Origin: a virus
Virus record (IMG/VR): IMGVR_UViG_3300042472_000391
Span: 1 to 20,323 of that record
Length of the DNA: 20,323 bases
Strand: one strand, 5' to 3'
In this document: one piece after another, positions 1 to 20,323 of the stretch
Numbering within the stretch: the stretch's first letter is position 1
How the letters are laid out: every line of letters starts with the position of its first letter
The notes under the pieces: generated by a model
The model's input: the letters and a program-made list of their open reading frames with translations, nothing else
What the model was told of the DNA's origin: nothing
Database searches by the model: none
Made by a program: the position numbers and the translations under genes

Positions 1-2280
1 GGAAACAGATGGGGATCCAACTGGCAGAACTTCCACAGATTAAGATTATATGCTAGAGGTGAGCAATCAGTTCAAAAGTATAAAGATGAATTATCAATCA
101 ATGGTGATTTATCTTATTTGAATCTTGACTGGAAACCTGTTCCTGTTATACCTAAGTTTGTTGACATCGTTGTTAACGGTATATCTAGCAAGAACTACGA
201 TATTAAAGCATACGCACAAGATCCAGATTCAATTAAAAAGAAAACAAATTATGCTTCTGCAATACTGGAAGACATGATGGCCAAAGATCTTTTAAATGAA
301 ATACAAGGAACGTTAGGAGCAAATCTATATAATACTATGGATCCTGCTAATTTACCAGAGGATAAAGAAGAATTAGAAATTAGACTTCAATTAAGTTACA
401 AACAAGAAATTGAAATAGCTGAAGAAGAAGTAATAAGTCAAATATTAGATAACAATAAATATCCGTTAATAAACAAAAGATTAAATTACGATTTAGTTGT
501 TTTGGGTATTGCGGCATCAAAAACAAATTGGAACAAAGCAGAAGGAGTAACAATAGATTATGTTGATCCTGCTAACCTTGTTTATTCTTACACAGAGGAT
601 CCAAACTTTGAAGACATATATTATGTTGGTGAAGTTAGATCTGTTACGTTAGAAGAGGTTAAAATGCAATTTCCACATTTAACAAAAGCTGATTTAGAAG
701 AGATTGAAAAATATCCAGGTGATGTAAATTATACACGTAACTATTACGGACAAGATTATGACACTTCTAATGTACAGGTGTTGTATTTTGAATACAAAAC
801 ATTTTCTAATCAAGTATTTAAAATTAAACAAACAGATGTTGGTTTAGAAAAAGCATTAGAAAAAACGGATGATTTTAATCCACCAGAAAGCGATACATTT
901 AGCAAAGTATCAAGAAGTATTGAAGTTTTATATTCAGGAGCAAAAATATTAGGTCACGAAAAAATGTTAGAATGGAAACTAGCAGAGAATATGACGAGAC
1001 CATTTGCTGATACAACAAGAGTACAAATGAATTATACTATTTGTGCACCAAGAATGTATAAAGGAAGAATTGAATCATTAGTAAGTCGTATAACAGGGTT
1101 TGCAGATATGATCCAGCTAACACATTTAAAAATACAACAAGTATTAGCTAGATTAGTTCCGGATGGAGTATTTGTCGATGTTGATGGTCTAGCCGAAGTT
1201 GATTTAGGTAATGGTACAAATTATAATCCGGCAGAGGCATTAAATATGTATTTCCAAACAGGTAGTATCGTTGGTAGATCAATGACGCAAGACGGAGATA
1301 TGAACAGAGCTAAAATTCCAATACAGGAATTACAAACTTCATCAGGTAGTGGCAAGATACAATCATTAATACAAACATATCAGTATTACTTACAAATGAT
1401 ACGTGATGTAACCGGATTAAATGAAGCAAGAGACGCTAGTACGCCAGACAGAGATGCTTTGGTTGGTTTACAAAAAATGGCAGCAGCAAATTCAAACACT
1501 GCAACAAGGCACATATTACAATCGAGTTTATATTTAACTCTACGTATATGTGAAAACATTTCAAGAAGAGTAGCTGATTCATTGAACTTCCCATTAACAG
1601 CAAGTTCATTAATGCAAAGTATATCGGTATCATCGGTAGAAACATTAAAAGAATTACAAAACTTAAACTTACATGACTTTGGTATTTTCTTAGAATTAGA
1701 ACCAGATGAAGAAGAAAGAGCACAATTAGAACAAAACATACAAGTTGCTTTACAATCAGGTGGTATTGATCTTGAAGATGCTATTGACTTAAGACAAATT
1801 AAAAATATTAAGTTAGCTAATCAGTCTCTTAAATATAAAAGAAAAAAGAAACAAGAAAGGGATCAAGAAAATCAAAAAGCAAACATACAAGCACAAGCTC
1901 AAGCAAACGCTCAGTTAGCGCAGGAAACAGCTATGGCTGAAGTACAAAAGCAACAAGCAATTACAGAACAGAAAATACAATTAGAGCAATCTAAACTAAG
2001 TTTTGAGATTCAAAAGATGCAACAAGAAGCGTTGATAAAGAAACAATTAATGGCAGAAGAGTTTAGTTATCAAATGCAATTAGCTCAAATGCAAGTTGCT
2101 CAAGCGCAAGAGAAACTTAATAAAATGGAAGATCGTAAAGATCAAAGAACAAAATTACAAGCCACACAACAATCTGAATTGATTGAACAAAGACAAAACA
2201 ATACATTACCAAAAGATTTTGAATCAGCAGGGTTTGACAATCTTGGTGGATTTGGTTTGGAGCAGTTCTCTCCTAAATAG
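1..2280 (+). CDS. Portal protein (5' end beyond window)
   Basis: Dodecameric head-vertex portal, the channel for DNA packaging and ejection and the docking site for the tail ring. Frame 1 is open from base 1, giving 759 residues. The visible TTG at 118 is internal, because the upstream codons continue a crAss-type portal N-terminus (WGSNWQNFHRLRLYARGEQ) that runs straight into the rest. The middle section, around residues 340-500, has the helix-rich portal core (MYKGRIESLVSRITGFADM, then IRDVTGLNEARDASTPDRDA). The last ~150 residues form a Gln/Ala/Lys-rich coiled coil expected to make the portal barrel, ending in a Gly/Phe-rich tail. The gene stops with TAG, the only TAG stop used by a gene here. 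Terminase would be expected upstream. Family assignment rests on remembered crAss-like signatures; portal function is well supported by position and sequence. Confidence 0.9.
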   Translation, partial: GNRWGSNWQNFHRLRLYARGEQSVQKYKDELSINGDLSYLNLDWKPVPVIPKFVDIVVNGISSKNYDIKAYAQDPDSIKKKTNYASAILEDMMAKDLLNEIQGTLGANLYNTMDPANLPEDKEELEIRLQLSYKQEIEIAEEEVISQILDNNKYPLINKRLNYDLVVLGIAASKTNWNKAEGVTIDYVDPANLVYSYTEDPNFEDIYYVGEVRSVTLEEVKMQFPHLTKADLEEIEKYPGDVNYTRNYYGQDYDTSNVQVLYFEYKTFSNQVFKIKQTDVGLEKALEKTDDFNPPESDTFSKVSRSIEVLYSGAKILGHEKMLEWKLAENMTRPFADTTRVQMNYTICAPRMYKGRIESLVSRITGFADMIQLTHLKIQQVLARLVPDGVFVDVDGLAEVDLGNGTNYNPAEALNMYFQTGSIVGRSMTQDGDMNRAKIPIQELQTSSGSGKIQSLIQTYQYYLQMIRDVTGLNEARDASTPDRDALVGLQKMAAANSNTATRHILQSSLYLTLRICENISRRVADSLNFPLTASSLMQSISVSSVETLKELQNLNLHDFGIFLELEPDEEERAQLEQNIQVALQSGGIDLEDAIDLRQIKNIKLANQSLKYKRKKKQERDQENQKANIQAQAQANAQLAQETAMAEVQKQQAITEQKIQLEQSKLSFEIQKMQQEALIKKQLMAEEFSYQMQLAQMQVAQAQEKLNKMEDRKDQRTKLQATQQSELIEQRQNNTLPKDFESAGFDNLGGFGLEQFSPK

Positions 2281-2311: not shown

Positions 2312-3472
2312 ATGGCAGAACAAATTAAACAAGAGGGTGACTTTAAAATTAAAAGAGCTAAAGTTCCTACTATTAAACATGTATCAGCTCAGTCTGTTGC
2401 AAAAGTAGATTTAACAACTAAACCAATAGGCGATGCCGTTCAAGAGCAAACAACAGATGAAGGCGTGTTACAGCCAGGACAACCCGAAATGGGATTGCAA
2501 GAAGTGGTCGAAGGAAACACCGAACAAAAAATCATTACCGAACCGGTTGATGAGAAAGAAGTAGTTGTAGTTAATATTACAGAAACTACTGAAGAAGCAA
2601 AAGAACTTGAAGCAGAAGCAGAAAAAGCAATTAATGATTTAAAAGTATCAGGTAAACCATTACCAGAGAATATTGAAAAGTTAATTACTTTTATGGAAGA
2701 AACAGGCGGAGACATTGAAGATTATACTCGTTTAAATACGGATTATTCTAAGTTGAATCCAGAAGTTCTATTAAAAGAATATTACAAGAAAACAAAACCA
2801 CATTTAGATTTAGACGAGATTGACTTTCACATGGAAGAAACATTCTCGTATGATGAAGAAGAAGACGACGAGCGAGAAATTAAAAAGAAACGTATCGCTT
2901 TCAAAGAAGAGGTTGGCAAAGCCAAAAGCTTTCTGGAGGATCTTAAGAGTAAATATTATGATGAAATTAAATTAAAGTCTAATGTAAACCCAGATCAACA
3001 AAAAGCAATTGATTTTTTCAATCGATACAAAGAGGATCAACAATCAGTTGAGCAAATGCATTCAGCATTTAAAGATAATACCAAAAAGTTTTTTACACAA
3101 GATTTCAAAGGTTTTGATTTCAACGCAGGTGGAAAAACATTCAGGTTTAATCTACAAAATACTGACGCTGTTGCAGATAAACAATCAAACATTACTAACC
3201 TACTTAAGAAGTTCTTAAACGAAAAAGGTGAAGTAACAGATATGACTGGGTATCATAAAGCAATGTATGCTGCTGAAAACACTGACAGTATTGCAAACCA
3301 TTTTTACGAACAAGGTAAAGCTGACGCTATTAAAGAGATGTTAGCTAAATCAAACAACATTTCAACAGAACCTAGACAAACGTCTGCTGGTGAAATTAAC
3401 GTGAATGGATTTAAAGTAAGAGCTATCAATGGTGTTGATTCTTCAAAATTAAGAATTAAGAGTAAATTTTAA
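2312..3472 (+). CDS. Putative capsid scaffold / prohead core protein
   Basis: Likely the assembly scaffold, inferred from its position between portal and major capsid protein and from its composition. Its 386 residues are highly charged. Residues 1-85 are Thr/Val/Gln/Glu-rich and probably disordered. Residues 90-230 are acidic and helical, with a dense Asp/Glu run (FSYDEEEDDEREIKKKR near residue 178) leading into a Lys/Glu coiled coil. Residues 240-350 form a mixed segment that may be globular (FFTQDFKGFDFNAGGKTFRF). The C-terminal ~25 residues are basic (GFKVRAINGVDSSKLRIKSK), like the capsid-binding tails of other scaffolds. It starts 31 bases after the portal stop, behind an unusual repeated leader, and lies 17 bases before the capsid gene, so the three genes probably form one transcript. 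No protease motif is visible. It could instead be a minor head protein. Confidence 0.6.
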   Translation: MAEQIKQEGDFKIKRAKVPTIKHVSAQSVAKVDLTTKPIGDAVQEQTTDEGVLQPGQPEMGLQEVVEGNTEQKIITEPVDEKEVVVVNITETTEEAKELEAEAEKAINDLKVSGKPLPENIEKLITFMEETGGDIEDYTRLNTDYSKLNPEVLLKEYYKKTKPHLDLDEIDFHMEETFSYDEEEDDEREIKKKRIAFKEEVGKAKSFLEDLKSKYYDEIKLKSNVNPDQQKAIDFFNRYKEDQQSVEQMHSAFKDNTKKFFTQDFKGFDFNAGGKTFRFNLQNTDAVADKQSNITNLLKKFLNEKGEVTDMTGYHKAMYAAENTDSIANHFYEQGKADAIKEMLAKSNNISTEPRQTSAGEINVNGFKVRAINGVDSSKLRIKSKF

Positions 3473-3489
3473 ACTAAAACAAACACATT

Positions 3490-4974
3490 ATGGCAACAGT
3501 AAATGTTACCCCGAACTTCGGTTCGATTAAGCCGTCACAAAAGCAACAAGCTTTAGACACAAACTATTTAAACTTTACGGATCCAAGTAACGCGGATTTC
3601 GTATCATTTGCACAACAATATTTACCAGAAGTTTATGAAGCTGAGGTAGAGCGTTATGGAAACAGAACATTATCTGGTTTCTTACGTATGGTTGGTGCTG
3701 AAATGCCAATGTCTTCTGACCAAGTTATCTGGTCTGAACAAAACAGATTACACGTTGCATACACAGGTGTAGACGTTGTAAGTGCTGCAGGTAATACTTT
3801 ATTGATTGCAAGTAATTTGAATCCTTCTGTTGCTACTGATTATGTAGCTAACGTTATTTCAAAAAACCAAACGATTGTTATTATGAATCCTGCAACAGGA
3901 TTAGAAGTTAAAGCTATCGTTACTGTTTCTGGAGCGAATGATACTTCTTCTAACGCTGCAAATGGTGCATTAACTGTTGCTCCTTATACTGCTGCTACTT
4001 TAGCTGCTGCTGGATTTACAGATGGAATGGACGATTTAAAAATCTTCGTTTATGGTTCTGAATACAAAAAAGGATCTACTTTAACAGGTGATGATTATAC
4101 TAGCATTCAACCTTCATTCACTCAATTTAATAACTCTCCAGTAATTATCCGTAACAAATATGCTGTTAATGGATCTGACACTGCACAAATCGGATGGGTA
4201 GAAATTGCTACTGAAGATGGTGCTGATGGTTACTACTGGTACTTAAAAGCTGAATCTGAAACAAGATTACGTTTTGAAGACTATTTAGAAATGACAGTTG
4301 TAGAGGGTGAATTAGCTGCTGCAGGATCTGCTGCATTAGCTGCTGGTAAAAAAGGTACACAAGGTTTATTTGCTGCTGTTGAAGACAGAGGAAATATCTT
4401 AAATAACTTTAGCCCAGTTGGTGGTTTAGGTTCTTTCGATAATATCTTGAAAAACTTAGATACTCAAGGAGCGATTGAAGAGAATATGTTATTCTTAAAC
4501 CGTCAATTATCTTTAGATTTTGATGATATGTTAGCTGGTTTATCTGCTGGTTCAGCAGGTGGGGTTGCTTACGGTTTATTCGAAAACTCATCTGAGATGG
4601 CATTAAACTTAGGTTTCTCTGGATTCAGAAGAGGGTCTTATGACTTCTACAAAACTGACTGGAAATACTTAAACGATGCTTCCACTCGTGGAGCAATGAC
4701 AGGTGTTGGTAGTTCAATCGAAGGTGTATTAATTCCAGCTGGAACTTCTACAGTTTACGATCAAATTTTAGGAACTAACATCCGTAGACCATTCTTACAC
4801 GTTCGTTATAGAGCTGCACAAGCTGATGACCGTAGAATGAAATCTTGGATCACTGGATCTGTTGGAGGTGCTTACACATCTGACTTAGATGCAATGGAGG
4901 TACACTTCTTATCTGAAAGATGTTTATGTGTGCAAGGTGCTAATAACTTCGTGTTATTCACTGCTTCAGCATAA
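3490..4974 (+). CDS. Major capsid protein (HK97 fold, crAss-like)
   Basis: Builds the icosahedral shell. The 494 residues match the usual crAss-like capsid length of about 490-500. The N-terminal half carries the family signature around residues 48-85 (YLPEVYEAEVERYGNRTLSG, then FLRMVGAEMPMSSDQVIWSE). Residues 92-185 form a Thr/Ala/Gly-rich beta segment that may be a surface or insertion domain. The C-terminal third has the conserved run RRPFLHVRYRAAQADDRRMK before a beta-rich end (LSERCLCVQGANNFVLFTAS). Codon use is biased towards C-ending codons compared with neighbours: I count about 15 TTC to 8 TTT for Phe, against roughly 3 to 11 in the next gene, as expected for the most abundant virion protein. 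A terminator follows 19 bases after the stop codon. There is no Shine-Dalgarno sequence. Confidence 0.92.
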   Translation: MATVNVTPNFGSIKPSQKQQALDTNYLNFTDPSNADFVSFAQQYLPEVYEAEVERYGNRTLSGFLRMVGAEMPMSSDQVIWSEQNRLHVAYTGVDVVSAAGNTLLIASNLNPSVATDYVANVISKNQTIVIMNPATGLEVKAIVTVSGANDTSSNAANGALTVAPYTAATLAAAGFTDGMDDLKIFVYGSEYKKGSTLTGDDYTSIQPSFTQFNNSPVIIRNKYAVNGSDTAQIGWVEIATEDGADGYYWYLKAESETRLRFEDYLEMTVVEGELAAAGSAALAAGKKGTQGLFAAVEDRGNILNNFSPVGGLGSFDNILKNLDTQGAIEENMLFLNRQLSLDFDDMLAGLSAGSAGGVAYGLFENSSEMALNLGFSGFRRGSYDFYKTDWKYLNDASTRGAMTGVGSSIEGVLIPAGTSTVYDQILGTNIRRPFLHVRYRAAQADDRRMKSWITGSVGGAYTSDLDAMEVHFLSERCLCVQGANNFVLFTASA

Positions 4975-15408: not shown

Positions 15409-16212
15409 ATGAGTATGGTAGTAGTTGGAGTAATAGGTGCCGCAGGTACAATAGCTTCAGGATTAATAGGTGCTGGTGCTGCTAAGAAAAGAGAAAGAGC
15501 AGCTGCACAAGATAAAGCTAGATTAGGAGCTGAACTTAACCAATTAGAAAATAGTAGACAAGCAATTATAAACCCTTACTCTACAACAAAAGATATGAGT
15601 AGCCTAGCTAAAGATTTATCTGGTACATTAAGTAATCCTTATGCTAATTTAGGCGTTGCTACAAATGCAGCTAAATTTGAGGCAGAGCAGATTGATGTTT
15701 CATTAGCAAACACATTGGACACGTTAAAAGATACAGGTGCGGGAGCGGGAGGTGCAACAGCATTGGCTCAAGCAGCATTAAAAGCTAAGCAGGGTATATC
15801 TTCTAGCATTGAATCTCAAGAAGCTAACAATGAAAAAATGAAAGCTCAAGGAGAAGCAAATTTACAAGAGGCTAAAATGCAAGAGAAACAAAGAATACAA
15901 GGTGTTCAAATTGATGAAGCTCGTCGCGTGCAATCAGCAGAGGCGGCTGGTAAGTCATTTATGTTTGGCGCGCAAGAAAATAGAGAGCAACAAAAAATAG
16001 ACAGAGTTGCGGGACAATTAGGAGGTGCTCAAGCACAACAAATGCAGGCACAAGCGGATAGAACAGGCGCAATTACCGGTATGATTGGTGGTTTATCATC
16101 AATAGCAGGAAGTATGGCTGGAAGTGCTGGATCTGGAGCAACAAGTACTCCTGGGTCAGGAGCAGGTTATGCATCTCAGTTTGGAGCAATGGCAAATCAA
16201 TTTAAAAAATAA
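15409..16212 (+). CDS. Internal virion / ejection protein (gp14-like type)
   Basis: The 267 residues begin with a hydrophobic, Gly/Ala-rich stretch (VVVGVIGAAGTIASGLIGAG, about residues 4-24) and continue as an Ala/Gln/Glu-rich helical protein with a glycine-hinged middle (DTGAGAGGATALAQAALKA). A second Gly/Ala/Ser hydrophobic region lies near 220-245. The sequence FMFGAQENREQQKIDRVAGQ is typical of short-tailed-phage internal proteins of the T7 gp14 kind, which leave the head early and help form a conduit through the cell envelope. A second in-frame ATG lies 6 bases downstream, and I kept the first. It follows the cupin stop by 3 bases. The family assignment is by pattern, not alignment. Confidence 0.7.
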   Translation: MSMVVVGVIGAAGTIASGLIGAGAAKKRERAAAQDKARLGAELNQLENSRQAIINPYSTTKDMSSLAKDLSGTLSNPYANLGVATNAAKFEAEQIDVSLANTLDTLKDTGAGAGGATALAQAALKAKQGISSSIESQEANNEKMKAQGEANLQEAKMQEKQRIQGVQIDEARRVQSAEAAGKSFMFGAQENREQQKIDRVAGQLGGAQAQQMQAQADRTGAITGMIGGLSSIAGSMAGSAGSGATSTPGSGAGYASQFGAMANQFKK

Positions 16213-16220
16213 AGATATAT

Positions 16221-17627
16221 ATGGGAGCATATTCAAATCCACAAATACCTATTGACACACAATCAGGACAATACTATAGGGATCTTACAAATACAATAGC
16301 AAGCAATACTGTTAATACTATTAACACATGGGCCGCAAAAGCCGCTGAGAATAAAAAAAATAATGAAGCTTTAAAAGTAAAAGTTGGAGAAGAAGAAAGT
16401 GCTTTATATAGAAATTTAAGTAGCACACAACAAACAAATCCAACTGTTAACTTTGAAGAATTATATAGACCTCAAATAAAAAGATACGCTGAATTAAGAA
16501 CGAGCATATTAAATGGAACAAGTACTGATCCTTCTAAAGACAGAATGGAAGCCGATAAAATATTTGCAAGTGTTGGTAATATTAAAAACTCATTAGTAGA
16601 TTTATCAAGTGAAGGTTTTGATGAAAAATATTCTAAAATGGGTGGAGCCGGCGGTTATGCTGTAAAAGAAAATGATCCAAATGTTATGAAGTCAATGCTA
16701 ATCTTCTCAGGCAAATTACCTGGTAAAAAAGTAGCAAGATTTGAAGATAACGATCCTTCTAAAGTTGTTTGGGATATATACGACGGTGAAACTAAAATAC
16801 AATCTTTATCAGCTGAACAATTAAAGAAAGCGGCTAGTGGCCAAGGTTTATTAAAAGTAATACCAAATGCTGCAGATTCTATAGACAATGCAAAAGCAGC
16901 CGTACCAGATGTATTTGATGTGAAAGACGGATTACCAACTGGAACAATTAAACAAGAATATTTAGGGGAAGTATACGAGAAAGAATTGCCTGGACAAGAA
17001 ACATCGATAGTTAGTGGTTATCAAAAAAATACCAAAAAATATGTAGCTACAGCAAAAATTAATAAAGAAGCTATTATGGCAAACCAAAACTTTTTAAATG
17101 TTTTAAATGCTAAAGCTGACGGTTTCATTAATGGCTCTGCGGATAATTCTCAAGCAATATTATTCCACAATACATATATTGCTAAGTCAGATCAAGATTT
17201 GCTTGAATGGGATAAACCTATGACTACAGAACAGCAAAACAAATTCAAATACGATTATAGAATGTTTGTTATAGATGGATTACCGGAAGAACAAACTGTT
17301 CCAGGATCTGGAATTATTGAAAAAGAAGAAATTACAAAACAAGTTATATCTAAACCAACAGGTGGCAAAGGAGGAAGTAATAAACCAAATAAACCATCTG
17401 CGGCCGCTGAAAAACAAGCAAAATTAGACGCTGAAGTTTCGGATTTAATAAAAACTAAAAAAGGTGGCGTTACTAGACAAGGGTATACATTAAGTATTAT
17501 AGATGGCAGATGGGGCCTTTATGATAAAGATGGGTTACCAAAACCTGGAACAGAAAATATCACGAACCCTACAGAATTAGCTACATTTATTGGTGGATCA
17601 CGACCAGGTAAAACAAAATTAAAATAA
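16221..17627 (+). CDS. Probable internal (cargo) virion protein
   Basis: Not recognised as a named family. The 468 residues are Lys/Asn/Ala-rich with mostly helical character. Residues 1-70 form a helix with an Asn/Lys patch (NTINTWAAKAAENKKNNEAL). Residues 75-270 are mixed and include a possible globular part (SGKLPGKKVARFEDNDPSKV, then VWDIYDGETKIQSLSAEQLK). Residues 370-405 are a Gly/Pro/Lys linker (PTGGKGGSNKPNKPSAAAEK). The last ~60 residues look like a small separate domain (GYTLSIIDGRWGLYDKDGLP). No signal peptide, membrane segment or active-site motif is visible. It lies 8 bases after the ejection-type gene and 18 bases before the giant gene, so a role as head cargo ejected with the DNA is likely but inferred. 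Confidence 0.55.
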   Translation: MGAYSNPQIPIDTQSGQYYRDLTNTIASNTVNTINTWAAKAAENKKNNEALKVKVGEEESALYRNLSSTQQTNPTVNFEELYRPQIKRYAELRTSILNGTSTDPSKDRMEADKIFASVGNIKNSLVDLSSEGFDEKYSKMGGAGGYAVKENDPNVMKSMLIFSGKLPGKKVARFEDNDPSKVVWDIYDGETKIQSLSAEQLKKAASGQGLLKVIPNAADSIDNAKAAVPDVFDVKDGLPTGTIKQEYLGEVYEKELPGQETSIVSGYQKNTKKYVATAKINKEAIMANQNFLNVLNAKADGFINGSADNSQAILFHNTYIAKSDQDLLEWDKPMTTEQQNKFKYDYRMFVIDGLPEEQTVPGSGIIEKEEITKQVISKPTGGKGGSNKPNKPSAAAEKQAKLDAEVSDLIKTKKGGVTRQGYTLSIIDGRWGLYDKDGLPKPGTENITNPTELATFIGGSRPGKTKLK

Positions 17628-17645
17628 AAAATAACAATAATATAT

Positions 17646-20323
17646 ATGGCAAAGTATTTTAATAATAACGGAGAAGAATATACTATAGAAGAAATCGTGG
17701 CAGCTGCTGAAGAAAACAATAAAAGTGTTGAAGACATTATAGCAGATAATGGTTTAACTATTGACGGTGAGAAGCCGGGAAAGTCTCAGGGTGTAACTGC
17801 AAAGAAACCGGTAGTTGCGCCAAAAAAACAAAAGTTGGTTTCACCTTCGGGAAATACTTCTTCGGGTTGGAATACTAAACCTACACCAAAATATGGTGTT
17901 GAAGCCATTACAGAAACTTTTCAAATAAAAAAGAAAGCTCAAGAAAAAAAAGCAGCAACTAAAAAAGCAGAAGTTAAGAAAAGCAAAGCTGTTGTTAATA
18001 ATTTTGTAGACACACAGCCCGACCTAGCTAATCCTTTTGATACAACAATAAAAGCAGATGTAACTGATCCATTTAATACGGGTGTAAAATTAGATGTAAG
18101 TAATATACAAAGCGATTATTTAGGTAGAGAAGATAAAAAAGCAATGCAATTTATTAATTCTAGTGTTAATCTTGACGAAGCTAACAGTAAGTTAAATGAT
18201 GAATTAAATGATTCTCAGACTATTGATTATGTAAGAGAAGGAGCAAAAGAATATTATAATGAATTAATTGCAAACCCACTTACTGAAGTTGCTGGGTTAT
18301 TTGGGGCAAACATTGATATAAAGATGGCTCCATATAAACCATTAGAGAATGAAAAAAAACAAGCTAGAGAAGAATTAGCTAAAAAAGGTATAAAGATTAC
18401 TAATGAAAAAATAGAGGAAAGAGCTAAATCTATATATATAGATAATCAAATATTAGATCAAAAAGGTAAAGCTGCTGAAGAATATTTTGACACATTAGAT
18501 GATGACAAATTAAAAGACCAATTAAAGATTAAAGCAATTGCGGATAAATTAAATGCATCGGACAAAGCTAGGCAATATACAATGCTATCTAAAGTTTATG
18601 ATTCTCAAATAAAAAGCTTTGGTAGTTATGCAAATGATATAAGAAAAAAATACAATGATGGTAATATAACGCCTGAAGAGTTAGCAGAATATAAAGTTAA
18701 AGCAAAAGAAGCTAAGGAAGCTTATGGATATTTAGAAAATATTTATAAAGACTTTCCTAAAGTAGAGCAGCAATTAAAAACAGACACAGAAAAACTAGAC
18801 TTTTATAAATTAAATTATGATGATGTAGAAGGTAATCTAAAAAGATTATATGCAAGTGGTTTAAAAGTATTAGGTGGAACATTAAAAATTGGCGGTGAAA
18901 GTGCTAAGTTTTTAGAAGAAAGCATAACAGGTAATATAAGCCCAATTGGTACTGGAACAAACTTAAGTACTATTGGGGGCATGATGTTGGAAGATGCTGA
19001 GACCGAAACACAGGATTTAAAATCTATAACTTTTGAAAGCGTTAGTAATTTTAATGATTTTGGTAAATATATGGGTAATCTGTTTTCAGATCAAATACCT
19101 ATATATGCTTCAATGTATTTTGGTGGTTCCGCAGGAGCAGGCGCAGTTTCGCTTAGTTCGGGTGGACAAAAGATACAAGAAATGGAAAACGAAGTTGGAG
19201 CTAACTATAGTTTAGGTACAAAGCTACTTACAGGTTATGCTTATGCTACAGCTGAATTCATTCCAGAAAAAATAGGTACACTTAGAATGTTTGAGAATCT
19301 AAAAGGCACTATGTCCTCTGTTGGTAAAGAATCAAGAGAATTATTTAAAGATGGACTATTTAAGTCTGCTATTGGAATTGGAGGTAAAACAGCAATGGAA
19401 TCCACTATAGAAGGTGGTACTGAGGGGCTGACTGAACTTTTAGATATGACTATTGATGAGCATCTATTAGGTAAAGAATTTACAGCTCAAACAAAAGTAA
19501 AAAGGATTAAGGAAGCTGTTGCTGGTGGAGTATTTATGGCTGGTCCTATGCAAACTATTGGAGGCGCTAATACTTTAATTGCAAAAGAATTAAAAAACTA
19601 TGCAACCGAAAACGAAATACAAGAAAGTAAAAAAATTATAGATAGAATTGATTTTTTACAGAATGAGTTAGCAACTAATGCTAGTTTATCAAGTAGTGAA
19701 TCAAATCAAATTAAACAAGAGATAAATAATTTATCTGATACTTCTATTGGTATAATTGAAAATTCTCAAGATAGAGTTTATAATATGACTACGGAAGATA
19801 TGGTTGCTGTAGTTAATATAAATAAAGAACAAGCTAACTTAAAAAATAAATATACAGAATTAATTGACTCTAATTTTTCAAATGAAATTAAAGTTGAAAA
19901 AGCAAACGAATTAAATAAGGAATTTAAACAACTTGAAAAAGAAAGACAGTTTTTATTAACGGATAAATACGCTACAATAAATAAAGTAGTTAATAACGCT
20001 TTGGTTATTAATGATAGCATTGAAAATATAACTAAGATAGCTAATTCTATTGGACAAGTTGAATTTGATAATAAAATAGGTGATCAATCTGGTATTGCTG
20101 TATTTAATTCACCAAAGGAATTAGGTGAAGCGTATAAAGTATGGTTAGTTAAAGATAATAAAAACGAAGATGGTACGGAAAAGAAAACACCTGCCAAAAT
20201 TGATTTAGAAGTAAAAGAAGCAATTAACTCAGATGGTTTTAAATTACCAAATGGACAAATTGTAATCAATAAAGCTGTTGCTGCTAATACAGGGGCTATT
20301 AACGTTGCTAACCATGAATTCTT
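17646..20323 (+). CDS. Giant cargo/ejection-type protein, possible zincin (3' end beyond window)
   Basis: The frame is open from the ATG at 17646 to the window edge: 892 residues and still running. The N-terminus carries a short helical motif seen at the start of large phage polyvalent proteins (EEYTIEEIVAAAEENNKSVE, ending in IIADNGL). A Lys/Thr/Ala/Pro-rich linker follows (about 45-120), then a helical Lys/Glu-rich region (150-440). Residues 470-520 and 610-640 are Gly/Ala-rich and hydrophobic (YFGGSAGAGAVSLSSGGQ, AVAGGVFMAGPMQTIGGA), possibly membrane-active. A long coiled coil covers about 655-800. At the edge, FKLPNGQIVINKAVAA leads to NHEF, with His890 and Glu891 as the last complete residues but one. 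This looks like the first half of a zincin HExxH site, though the second His is outside the window. Lysis, peptidase and cargo roles are inferred. Confidence 0.7.
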   Translation, partial: MAKYFNNNGEEYTIEEIVAAAEENNKSVEDIIADNGLTIDGEKPGKSQGVTAKKPVVAPKKQKLVSPSGNTSSGWNTKPTPKYGVEAITETFQIKKKAQEKKAATKKAEVKKSKAVVNNFVDTQPDLANPFDTTIKADVTDPFNTGVKLDVSNIQSDYLGREDKKAMQFINSSVNLDEANSKLNDELNDSQTIDYVREGAKEYYNELIANPLTEVAGLFGANIDIKMAPYKPLENEKKQAREELAKKGIKITNEKIEERAKSIYIDNQILDQKGKAAEEYFDTLDDDKLKDQLKIKAIADKLNASDKARQYTMLSKVYDSQIKSFGSYANDIRKKYNDGNITPEELAEYKVKAKEAKEAYGYLENIYKDFPKVEQQLKTDTEKLDFYKLNYDDVEGNLKRLYASGLKVLGGTLKIGGESAKFLEESITGNISPIGTGTNLSTIGGMMLEDAETETQDLKSITFESVSNFNDFGKYMGNLFSDQIPIYASMYFGGSAGAGAVSLSSGGQKIQEMENEVGANYSLGTKLLTGYAYATAEFIPEKIGTLRMFENLKGTMSSVGKESRELFKDGLFKSAIGIGGKTAMESTIEGGTEGLTELLDMTIDEHLLGKEFTAQTKVKRIKEAVAGGVFMAGPMQTIGGANTLIAKELKNYATENEIQESKKIIDRIDFLQNELATNASLSSSESNQIKQEINNLSDTSIGIIENSQDRVYNMTTEDMVAVVNINKEQANLKNKYTELIDSNFSNEIKVEKANELNKEFKQLEKERQFLLTDKYATINKVVNNALVINDSIENITKIANSIGQVEFDNKIGDQSGIAVFNSPKELGEAYKVWLVKDNKNEDGTEKKTPAKIDLEVKEAINSDGFKLPNGQIVINKAVAANTGAINVANHEF

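Follow-up and report, generated by a model that had tools for sequence, protein, structure and literature searches.

A putative zincin metallopeptidase domain in the giant virion-type protein of an uncultured phage related to Flavobacteriia phages

Gene content of the window

The window analysed here is the whole of the linear IMG/VR virus record IMGVR_UViG_3300042472_000391 (20323 bases), and its relevant genes and features are listed in Table 1. The relative of the structural protein encoded at 3490-4974 in Cellulophaga phage Calle_1 is annotated as a major capsid protein. The last ORF (17646-20321, 892 aa) has no stop codon before the edge and ends in ...NVANHEF followed by TT (20322-20323), the bases 20313-20321 being CAT GAA TTC (H890, E891 and F892) after an AAC codon. 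A preliminary description of this DNA had reported NHEF and then TT at this place, correctly in both peptide and coordinates, and had proposed that an HExxH zinc-protease site is cut here by the edge. Since the record is linear and comprises just 20323 bases, the zinc site cannot be completed within its own contig, and the remainder of the domain lies beyond the 3' edge of the window.

Table 1 Genes and features of the window
Feature	Position	Strand	Remarks
Portal gene	1-2280	+	5' end cut; phrog_6547, E 1e-134
Gene of a 386-aa protein, ORF adjoining the portal gene	2312-3472	+
Gene of a virion structural protein	3490-4974	+	phrog_13704, E 1e-97
Gene of a 267-aa protein, putative small triad member by position (compare N4 gp52)	15409-16212	+	putative role
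Gene of a 468-aa protein directly 5' of the giant, putative medium ejection-type triad member by position (compare N4 gp51)	16221-17627	+	putative role
Giant virion-type protein gene, first 892 codons	17646-20323	+	frame open to the end; rest cut by contig end
Putative zincin domain, N-terminal part, starting at the first predicted strand (around residue 817) and running to HEF	20094-20323	+	from models of the L002 domain
Start of the HExxH site, HEF codons and two bases	20313-20323	+	from sequence; completed as HEFLH in L002

The small-medium-giant gene order recurs in the related loci described below. Among the 74 of 79 loci with enough upstream sequence, an ORF of at least 300 aa (median 471) ends directly before the giant in every case (74/74), and an ORF of 150-350 aa precedes this medium ORF in 72/74; by tblastn, homologues of the 267-aa protein were detected in 50/79 loci and of the 468-aa protein in 20/79. 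The genes gp52-gp51-gp50 of phage N4 have the same order, and their products are treated as ejection proteins and likened to T7 gp14, gp15 and gp16 in the available text of PMC12633501. The roles suggested for the triad rest on gene position; by analogy with N4 gp52-51-50, the giant is quite probably the last of a three-protein ejection set and would enter the cell with the DNA.

Completion of the site in related contigs

The 892 residues were used to scan viral contigs, which led to two loci, L002 (IMGVR_UViG_3300034050_000199) and L003, both open at the 3' end. The L002 giant differs from that of the window in 17 of 892 residues and 76 of 2678 bases; the capsid-type proteins of the two contigs are 100% identical, and stretches of the region between the capsid-type gene and the giant show 79-88% identity. 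In L002, HEF is followed by TTA CAT AAA (HEFLH-K, residues 890-894), so the motif is HEFLH. The preliminary description had predicted Phe or Leu and then His after HEF, and the codons TTA CAT encode Leu and His, the second His being His894; it had also called for a downstream Glu or His ligand, and the sequence past HEFLH (..EDYAEEYFNSFIDAL..) contains Glu955, 65 residues after the first His. L003, with 59% identity over the aligned proteins, likewise has HEFLH and later ..NLEEYFTAFIDAI... By chance, the HExxH pattern would occur 0.001 times in the shuffled L002 protein (2404 aa), and 28 of the 33 HEF triplets in 79 related giant proteins are HEFxH.

Two other stretches of the L002 giant, both beyond the part covered by the window, were noticed by eye. 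Residues about 1168-1232 (EEMVSYVRTSMIPYIAKFDPTKNNSLYGYINAQYINRMK) have a sigma-factor-type helical look, and Pfam gave no match for this stretch. Residues about 1598-1628 (PDIVIG...FVEAKL) resemble the core of PD-(D/E)xK nucleases and are missing, also by eye, from the full-length relative L009.

Conservation of the site among relatives

An alignment-based scan of IMG/VR, with two peptide patterns that did not include HExxH, gave 213 relatives, of which 79 loci were kept. HExxH was found at the expected place in 79/79 ORFs. Where complete, relatives reach lengths of 2100-3200 aa or more; with the second collection described below included, complete giant ORFs, split genes apart, measured 2145-3658 aa. 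Across the 73 distinct domains, seven columns were invariant, namely His890, Glu891, His894, Glu955, Gly994, Gly1003 and Phe1009; Gly1003 and Phe1009 belonged to the search pattern, and the four site residues lay outside the patterns. In an alignment of 106 rows, made up of these 73 domains and 33 of the 48 profile-matching members of a second collection, only H, E, H and Glu955 remained invariant; the rows were anchored on HExxH, Glu was not a criterion, and none was discarded for a missing motif. The reading of the edge as an HExxH zinc-protease site is supported by the relatives, where the site is complete and its four residues are invariant in 106/106 aligned sequences. The spacing from the first His to the Glu is 50-84 residues (median 60). 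In gluzincins the third ligand is a Glu, and a spacing of 50-84 residues is compatible with this class.

The second collection was gathered with the well-conserved C-terminal module, which makes up about 470 residues at the end of the giants; the scan gave 564 relatives, of which 80 were kept, the contigs being partly shared with the first collection and every seed sequence having a zincin. A giant ORF of more than 2000 aa was present in 77/80 loci, and HExxH occurred in 77/77 of these giants (78 motifs) compared with 0.5% of 1540 shuffled proteins, always 1031-1480 residues upstream of the C-terminal module. H, E, H and E were invariant here as well (77/77). In two of the three other loci, L184 (4620-11482) and L185 (3495-12013), a split, through biology or an assembly error, leaves the giant as two ORFs, of which the upstream one carries HExxH, and in the third, L141, the contig start cuts the giant. 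The profile of the first collection matched 48/77 giants; of the 29 diverged domains, 21 were compared by profile as subsets of 14 and 7, with 8 left out, and aligned over 211 and 205 columns at E 3e-15 and 6e-11, values that have no shuffle control. From these alignments we read all second-collection domains as one homologous, strongly diverged domain. One subgroup, A9, has an invariant Asp three residues past HExxH, which the window's type lacks; such an Asp marks one phage clade of zincins in the zincin section of PMC5512222.

The 2888-aa giant of locus L008 (3620-12286) carries, by eye, QEAGH at the HExxH place, followed by AEEYVMNIVEF, and is perhaps a natural inactive version. We also considered whether the zincin evolves unusually fast, as suggested by a median pairwise identity of 18% versus 55% for the C-terminal module. 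This was rejected from the identity profile along the whole protein: windows before the C-terminal module have 12-27%, among which the HExxH window forms a local peak (26%), and the C-terminal module had itself served to pick the loci.

Fold prediction and family searches

Two AlphaFold models of the domain were obtained, one of 275 residues from 73 loci sequences (pLDDT 84.3, pTM 0.82) and a trimmed one of 162 residues from 106 sequences (pLDDT 90.9, pTM 0.78). The predicted order of elements is strands, the HExxH helix and a later helix (144-154 in the trimmed model) that starts at the Glu, in agreement with the element order of zincins as described in the relevant part of PMC5512222. Against solved structures, neither model had a Foldseek match that reached E 0.001. 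In the VIA comparison of the longer model, lethal factor ranked at the top with Z 5.7 (150 residues, 4.2 angstroms) and Z 4.7, and below it came unrelated structures (Z 2.5-3.2) and five entries for collagenases (Z 2.1-2.5). For the trimmed model, the three top rows were unrelated half-domain matches (Z 4.1); the rows that spanned nearly the whole domain included 1oz9 (Z 4.0), PprI 8sln (Z 3.5), 1tvi (Z 3.1), collagenase 7zbv (Z 2.5) and a calmodulin complex (Z 2.2, 8.4 angstroms), and lethal factor was absent among the matches listed. We take 1oz9 and 1tvi to be YbeY-type proteins, and PprI is presumably an IrrE-type metalloprotein. These structure matches agree with a predicted zincin and, taken alone, are no proof of one. 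The preliminary description had held that a fold unlike zincins would speak against its proposal; the predicted element order is zincin-like, whereas the matches to solved structures are weak. Among predicted viral proteins, Foldseek returned one match at or below E 0.001, to an uncharacterised long protein from an uncultured virus (E 4.6e-6).

The profile search for zincin families that the same description had recommended gave no match for the window's type and weak metallopeptidase matches in a few diverged relatives. Pfam and PHROGs contained no zincin match for the window fragment, L002, L003 or the set A4, NCBIfam had none for the 7-member set A4, the only one compared with it, and a sequence-profile search of solved structures found no zincin. 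Peptidase_M78 (IrrE-like) was matched by 7/73 relatives at E 0.1 or better, with 0.0017 as the best value and no match for the L002 domain itself, ATLF by 2/73 (E 0.0047) and the metallo-protease family phrog_87 by 3/73 (E 0.00017); outside this set, Reprolysin_3 was matched by 1/14 A8 members (E 0.0097) and Peptidase_M91 'Effector protein' by 2/7 A9 members (best E 0.00053). All these weak matches of the 73 relatives, A8 and A9 stand beside matches to unrelated families, many of them in the case of the 73 relatives.

Judged from residue conservation and the models, the window edge almost certainly interrupts a zincin (HExxH ... Glu) metallopeptidase domain in a giant phage protein, and this candidate domain very probably belongs, as a genuine example, to a kind of phage enzyme that is already known. 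The link to the zincins of phage polyvalent proteins drawn in the preliminary description fits the account of them in PMC5512222, as far as that account was available.

Giants of cultured phages

By its sequence, the phage that carries the giant is a tailed, uncultured phage related to Flavobacteriia phages. In phage records, the window giant had matches only in those of Flavobacterium and Tenacibaculum, and related portals occur in 87 phage records, 86 of which bear the name of Flavobacterium, Cellulophaga, Tenacibaculum or Maribacter. A search of a genome collection gave only two matches, both in metagenome-assembled genomes. The domains of L012 (E up to 1) and L031 (E up to 0.1) and the C-terminal module of L041 (E up to 1e-5) had no match in phage records.

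The Cellulophaga phages phi38:1 and phi19:3 have portal and capsid proteins akin to those of the window. They encode giant-position proteins of 1691 and 1871 aa without HExxH, a motif that is absent from every ORF of at least 60 aa in the fetched stretches of both. These two proteins correspond to the window giant by position and were absent among its sequence matches. The giant of the Flavobacterium elemo phages is annotated as a structural protein, and phi38:1 gp101 is likewise so annotated, by similarity; the available part of PMC7077304, a paper found by host name, mentions neither elemo nor mass spectrometry. The record ranked first by both portal and capsid protein is MW202828. Its giant (MW202828.1, L103 741-12320, - strand) has 3859 aa and two HEFGH motifs, at 1615 and 2500, and is annotated as 'reticulocyte binding/rhoptry protein', which is probably a misannotation. 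In Tenacibaculum phage Gundel_1, HECLH occurs outside the giant, in a 127-aa ORF (L105 22131-22514, + strand) that, from its sequence, is possibly a stand-alone small metallopeptidase.

A peptide of about 37 residues with the core QPGQPEMGLQEV, encoded at 2432-2542 of the window within ORF 2312-3472, is shared with some of these giants. It is common to elemo phage giants (E 1e-8; 68 Flavobacterium records matched, with 30 of 69 matches listed) and recurs in the MW202828 giant (E 2e-4). In IMG/VR it was located in a protein of 378-407 aa, or a cut copy of one, in 42/45 loci and in long proteins in 3/45 (L225, L227 and L237). The LQE in it resembles what we take to be the T4 prohead protease rule, and the shared peptide may serve as a tag for encapsidation or mark a site of processing.

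Discussion

A key question is what a peptidase in this position would cut. In zincins, two His and a Glu hold the zinc, and the Glu of the motif activates water. In the giant, the two His and Glu955 would hold a zinc ion, and Glu891 would activate water. The chain with its putative peptidase would travel into the cell with the DNA, and the peptidase would cut a virion-derived protein, likeliest the giant chain itself or its partners; such cutting would let separate units go through the tail channel or work independently once inside the cell. As a whole, a zincin in an ejected giant that cuts a virion-derived protein is the best explanation, with a probability of roughly 0.6. The choice of target, most likely the giant itself or its partners, is more tentative, at somewhat below even odds. 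Processing of the giant or its partners is placed first because no complete giant of the second collection lacks the domain, which sits comparably far from the C-terminal module in all of them. The two giants of phi38:1 and phi19:3, which correspond by position and lack HExxH, are short (1691 and 1871 aa), as processing would also suggest. Self-processing has been proposed for zincins of polyvalent proteins, with P1 DdrB as an example, in the section of PMC5512222 devoted to them. The main counter-evidence, by analogy, is N4 gp50, which bears HExxH and is packaged whole.

In the main rival reading, the zincin, once ejected, attacks one or several proteins of the host, for instance of defence or the envelope, in favour of infection. 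Host cleavage is given as an option for polyvalent-protein zincins in the same part of PMC5512222, and the weak matches of A9 members to Peptidase_M91 'Effector protein' would suit it, as would the strong divergence of the domain between phages with retention of the active site. However, the remainder of the N-terminal part has diverged to the same degree as the zincin, so this divergence is no argument for host cleavage, and presence at a similar place in 77/77 giants is unlike a dispensable effector; we regard an effector as rather unlikely. Still less likely is that the zincin fold serves as a folding unit or clasp of the giant, its peptidase activity being minor or absent. This would be in line with N4 gp50, which stays whole and whose C-terminal domain with C1 inhibits the polymerase (PMC12633501, available text), and with L008, which by eye keeps the place with QEAGH instead of HExxH. 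Against it stands the catalytic Glu, invariant in 106/106 and 77/77 sequences; a domain with a purely structural role could do without it.

The domain might alternatively be an HExxH metalloenzyme other than a peptidase, such as an HExxH-type oxygenase or nuclease. HExxH is also found in radical-SAM-linked enzymes, according to the portion of PMC12633501 available, and 1oz9 (Z 4.0) and 1tvi (Z 3.1) appeared in the VIA rows of the trimmed model; but the third-ligand Glu and its spacing of 50-84 residues suit gluzincins, and lethal factor, collagenases and PprI are in the VIA lists too, which leaves this reading improbable. That the HEF at the edge belongs to no site at all could be argued from the window, which itself contains only HEF, but the complete site in L002 practically refutes such a coincidence, and the relatives are invariant; its probability is negligible.

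How giants of 2000-3500 residues pass a channel of about 35 angstroms and then become active is an open question even for N4 (PMC12633501, available text). A protease site in 77/77 giants of more than 2000 aa offers a testable handle on it, by which self-processing, host attack and a structural role can be told apart. More speculatively, and with the odds well against it, an unnamed large lineage of uncultured Flavobacteriia-type phages might depend on a universal virion metallopeptidase that processes the giant, and perhaps its partners, at packaging or entry; the QPEMGLQEV peptide, present in some giants and in the portal-adjoining protein of 378-407 aa, could then be a tag or cutting site in the processing pathway. 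If true, metallopeptidase processing of the giant would be a step unreported for N4 gp50.

Comparison with known systems

Among cultured phages, gp21 of the Flavobacterium elemo phages is related to the window giant at window residues 369-779 (28% identity, E 2e-27), occupies the same gene place and has HEIFH at residue 1543. It differs in its length of 3694 aa, in the zincin standing elsewhere in the chain and in a DUF3293 domain; tblastn with the L002 domain did not find the elemo gp21 zincin.

N4 gp50 is likewise the giant last protein of a small-medium-giant set that adjoins the portal and capsid genes, and its domain C1 has HELVH, then NEF. A profile of the N4 gp50 zincin was built from 11 phages, and in the match to C1 the HExxH and the strand and helix preceding it were in register (E 1.6e-4, probability 50.4, 58 columns). 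None of 180 column-shuffled controls (three designs, 60 each) exceeded the real score. Shuffles that kept the five motif columns nearly equalled it (best 38.0 versus 38.3; probability up to 51.3 versus 50.4), so the likeness to N4 C1 is supported for the motif only. The A8 profile matched the N4 domain over just 21 columns around the motif, and kinship of the C-terminal module with N4 C2, which was also considered, gave no profile match. No single-subunit RNA polymerase domain was detected in the 3'-open L002 and L003 proteins with Pfam (E up to 1) or PHROGs (E up to 0.1), searches that had no N4 control. N4 gp50 with its HExxH domain is said to be packaged unprocessed in the passages of PMC5512222 available, and in those of PMC12633501 it is studied as a full-length 383-kDa enzyme whose C-terminal domain, C1 included, inhibits the polymerase, with C1 contacting it.

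P1 DdrB is a virion-associated polyvalent protein with a zincin, reported to be cut before packaging; in the description given in part of PMC5512222, by which alone we know it, it differs from the window giant in that its zincin is C-terminal and accompanied by a ParB-like domain. The zincin-like MPTases of that account (Iyer et al. 2017), which sorts them into 12 clades, share with the window's domain the HExxH with a later Glu, the strands before the HExxH helix, and the location inside a giant multidomain protein with adjoining virion genes; the L002 type of the window is very probably one of this kind that Pfam, NCBIfam and PHROGs leave unnamed. It would best be filed, provisionally, as a lineage new among the zincin metallopeptidases in polyvalent proteins of phages, a diverged domain family defined by four invariant residues, of which the window's type has no name in the libraries searched.
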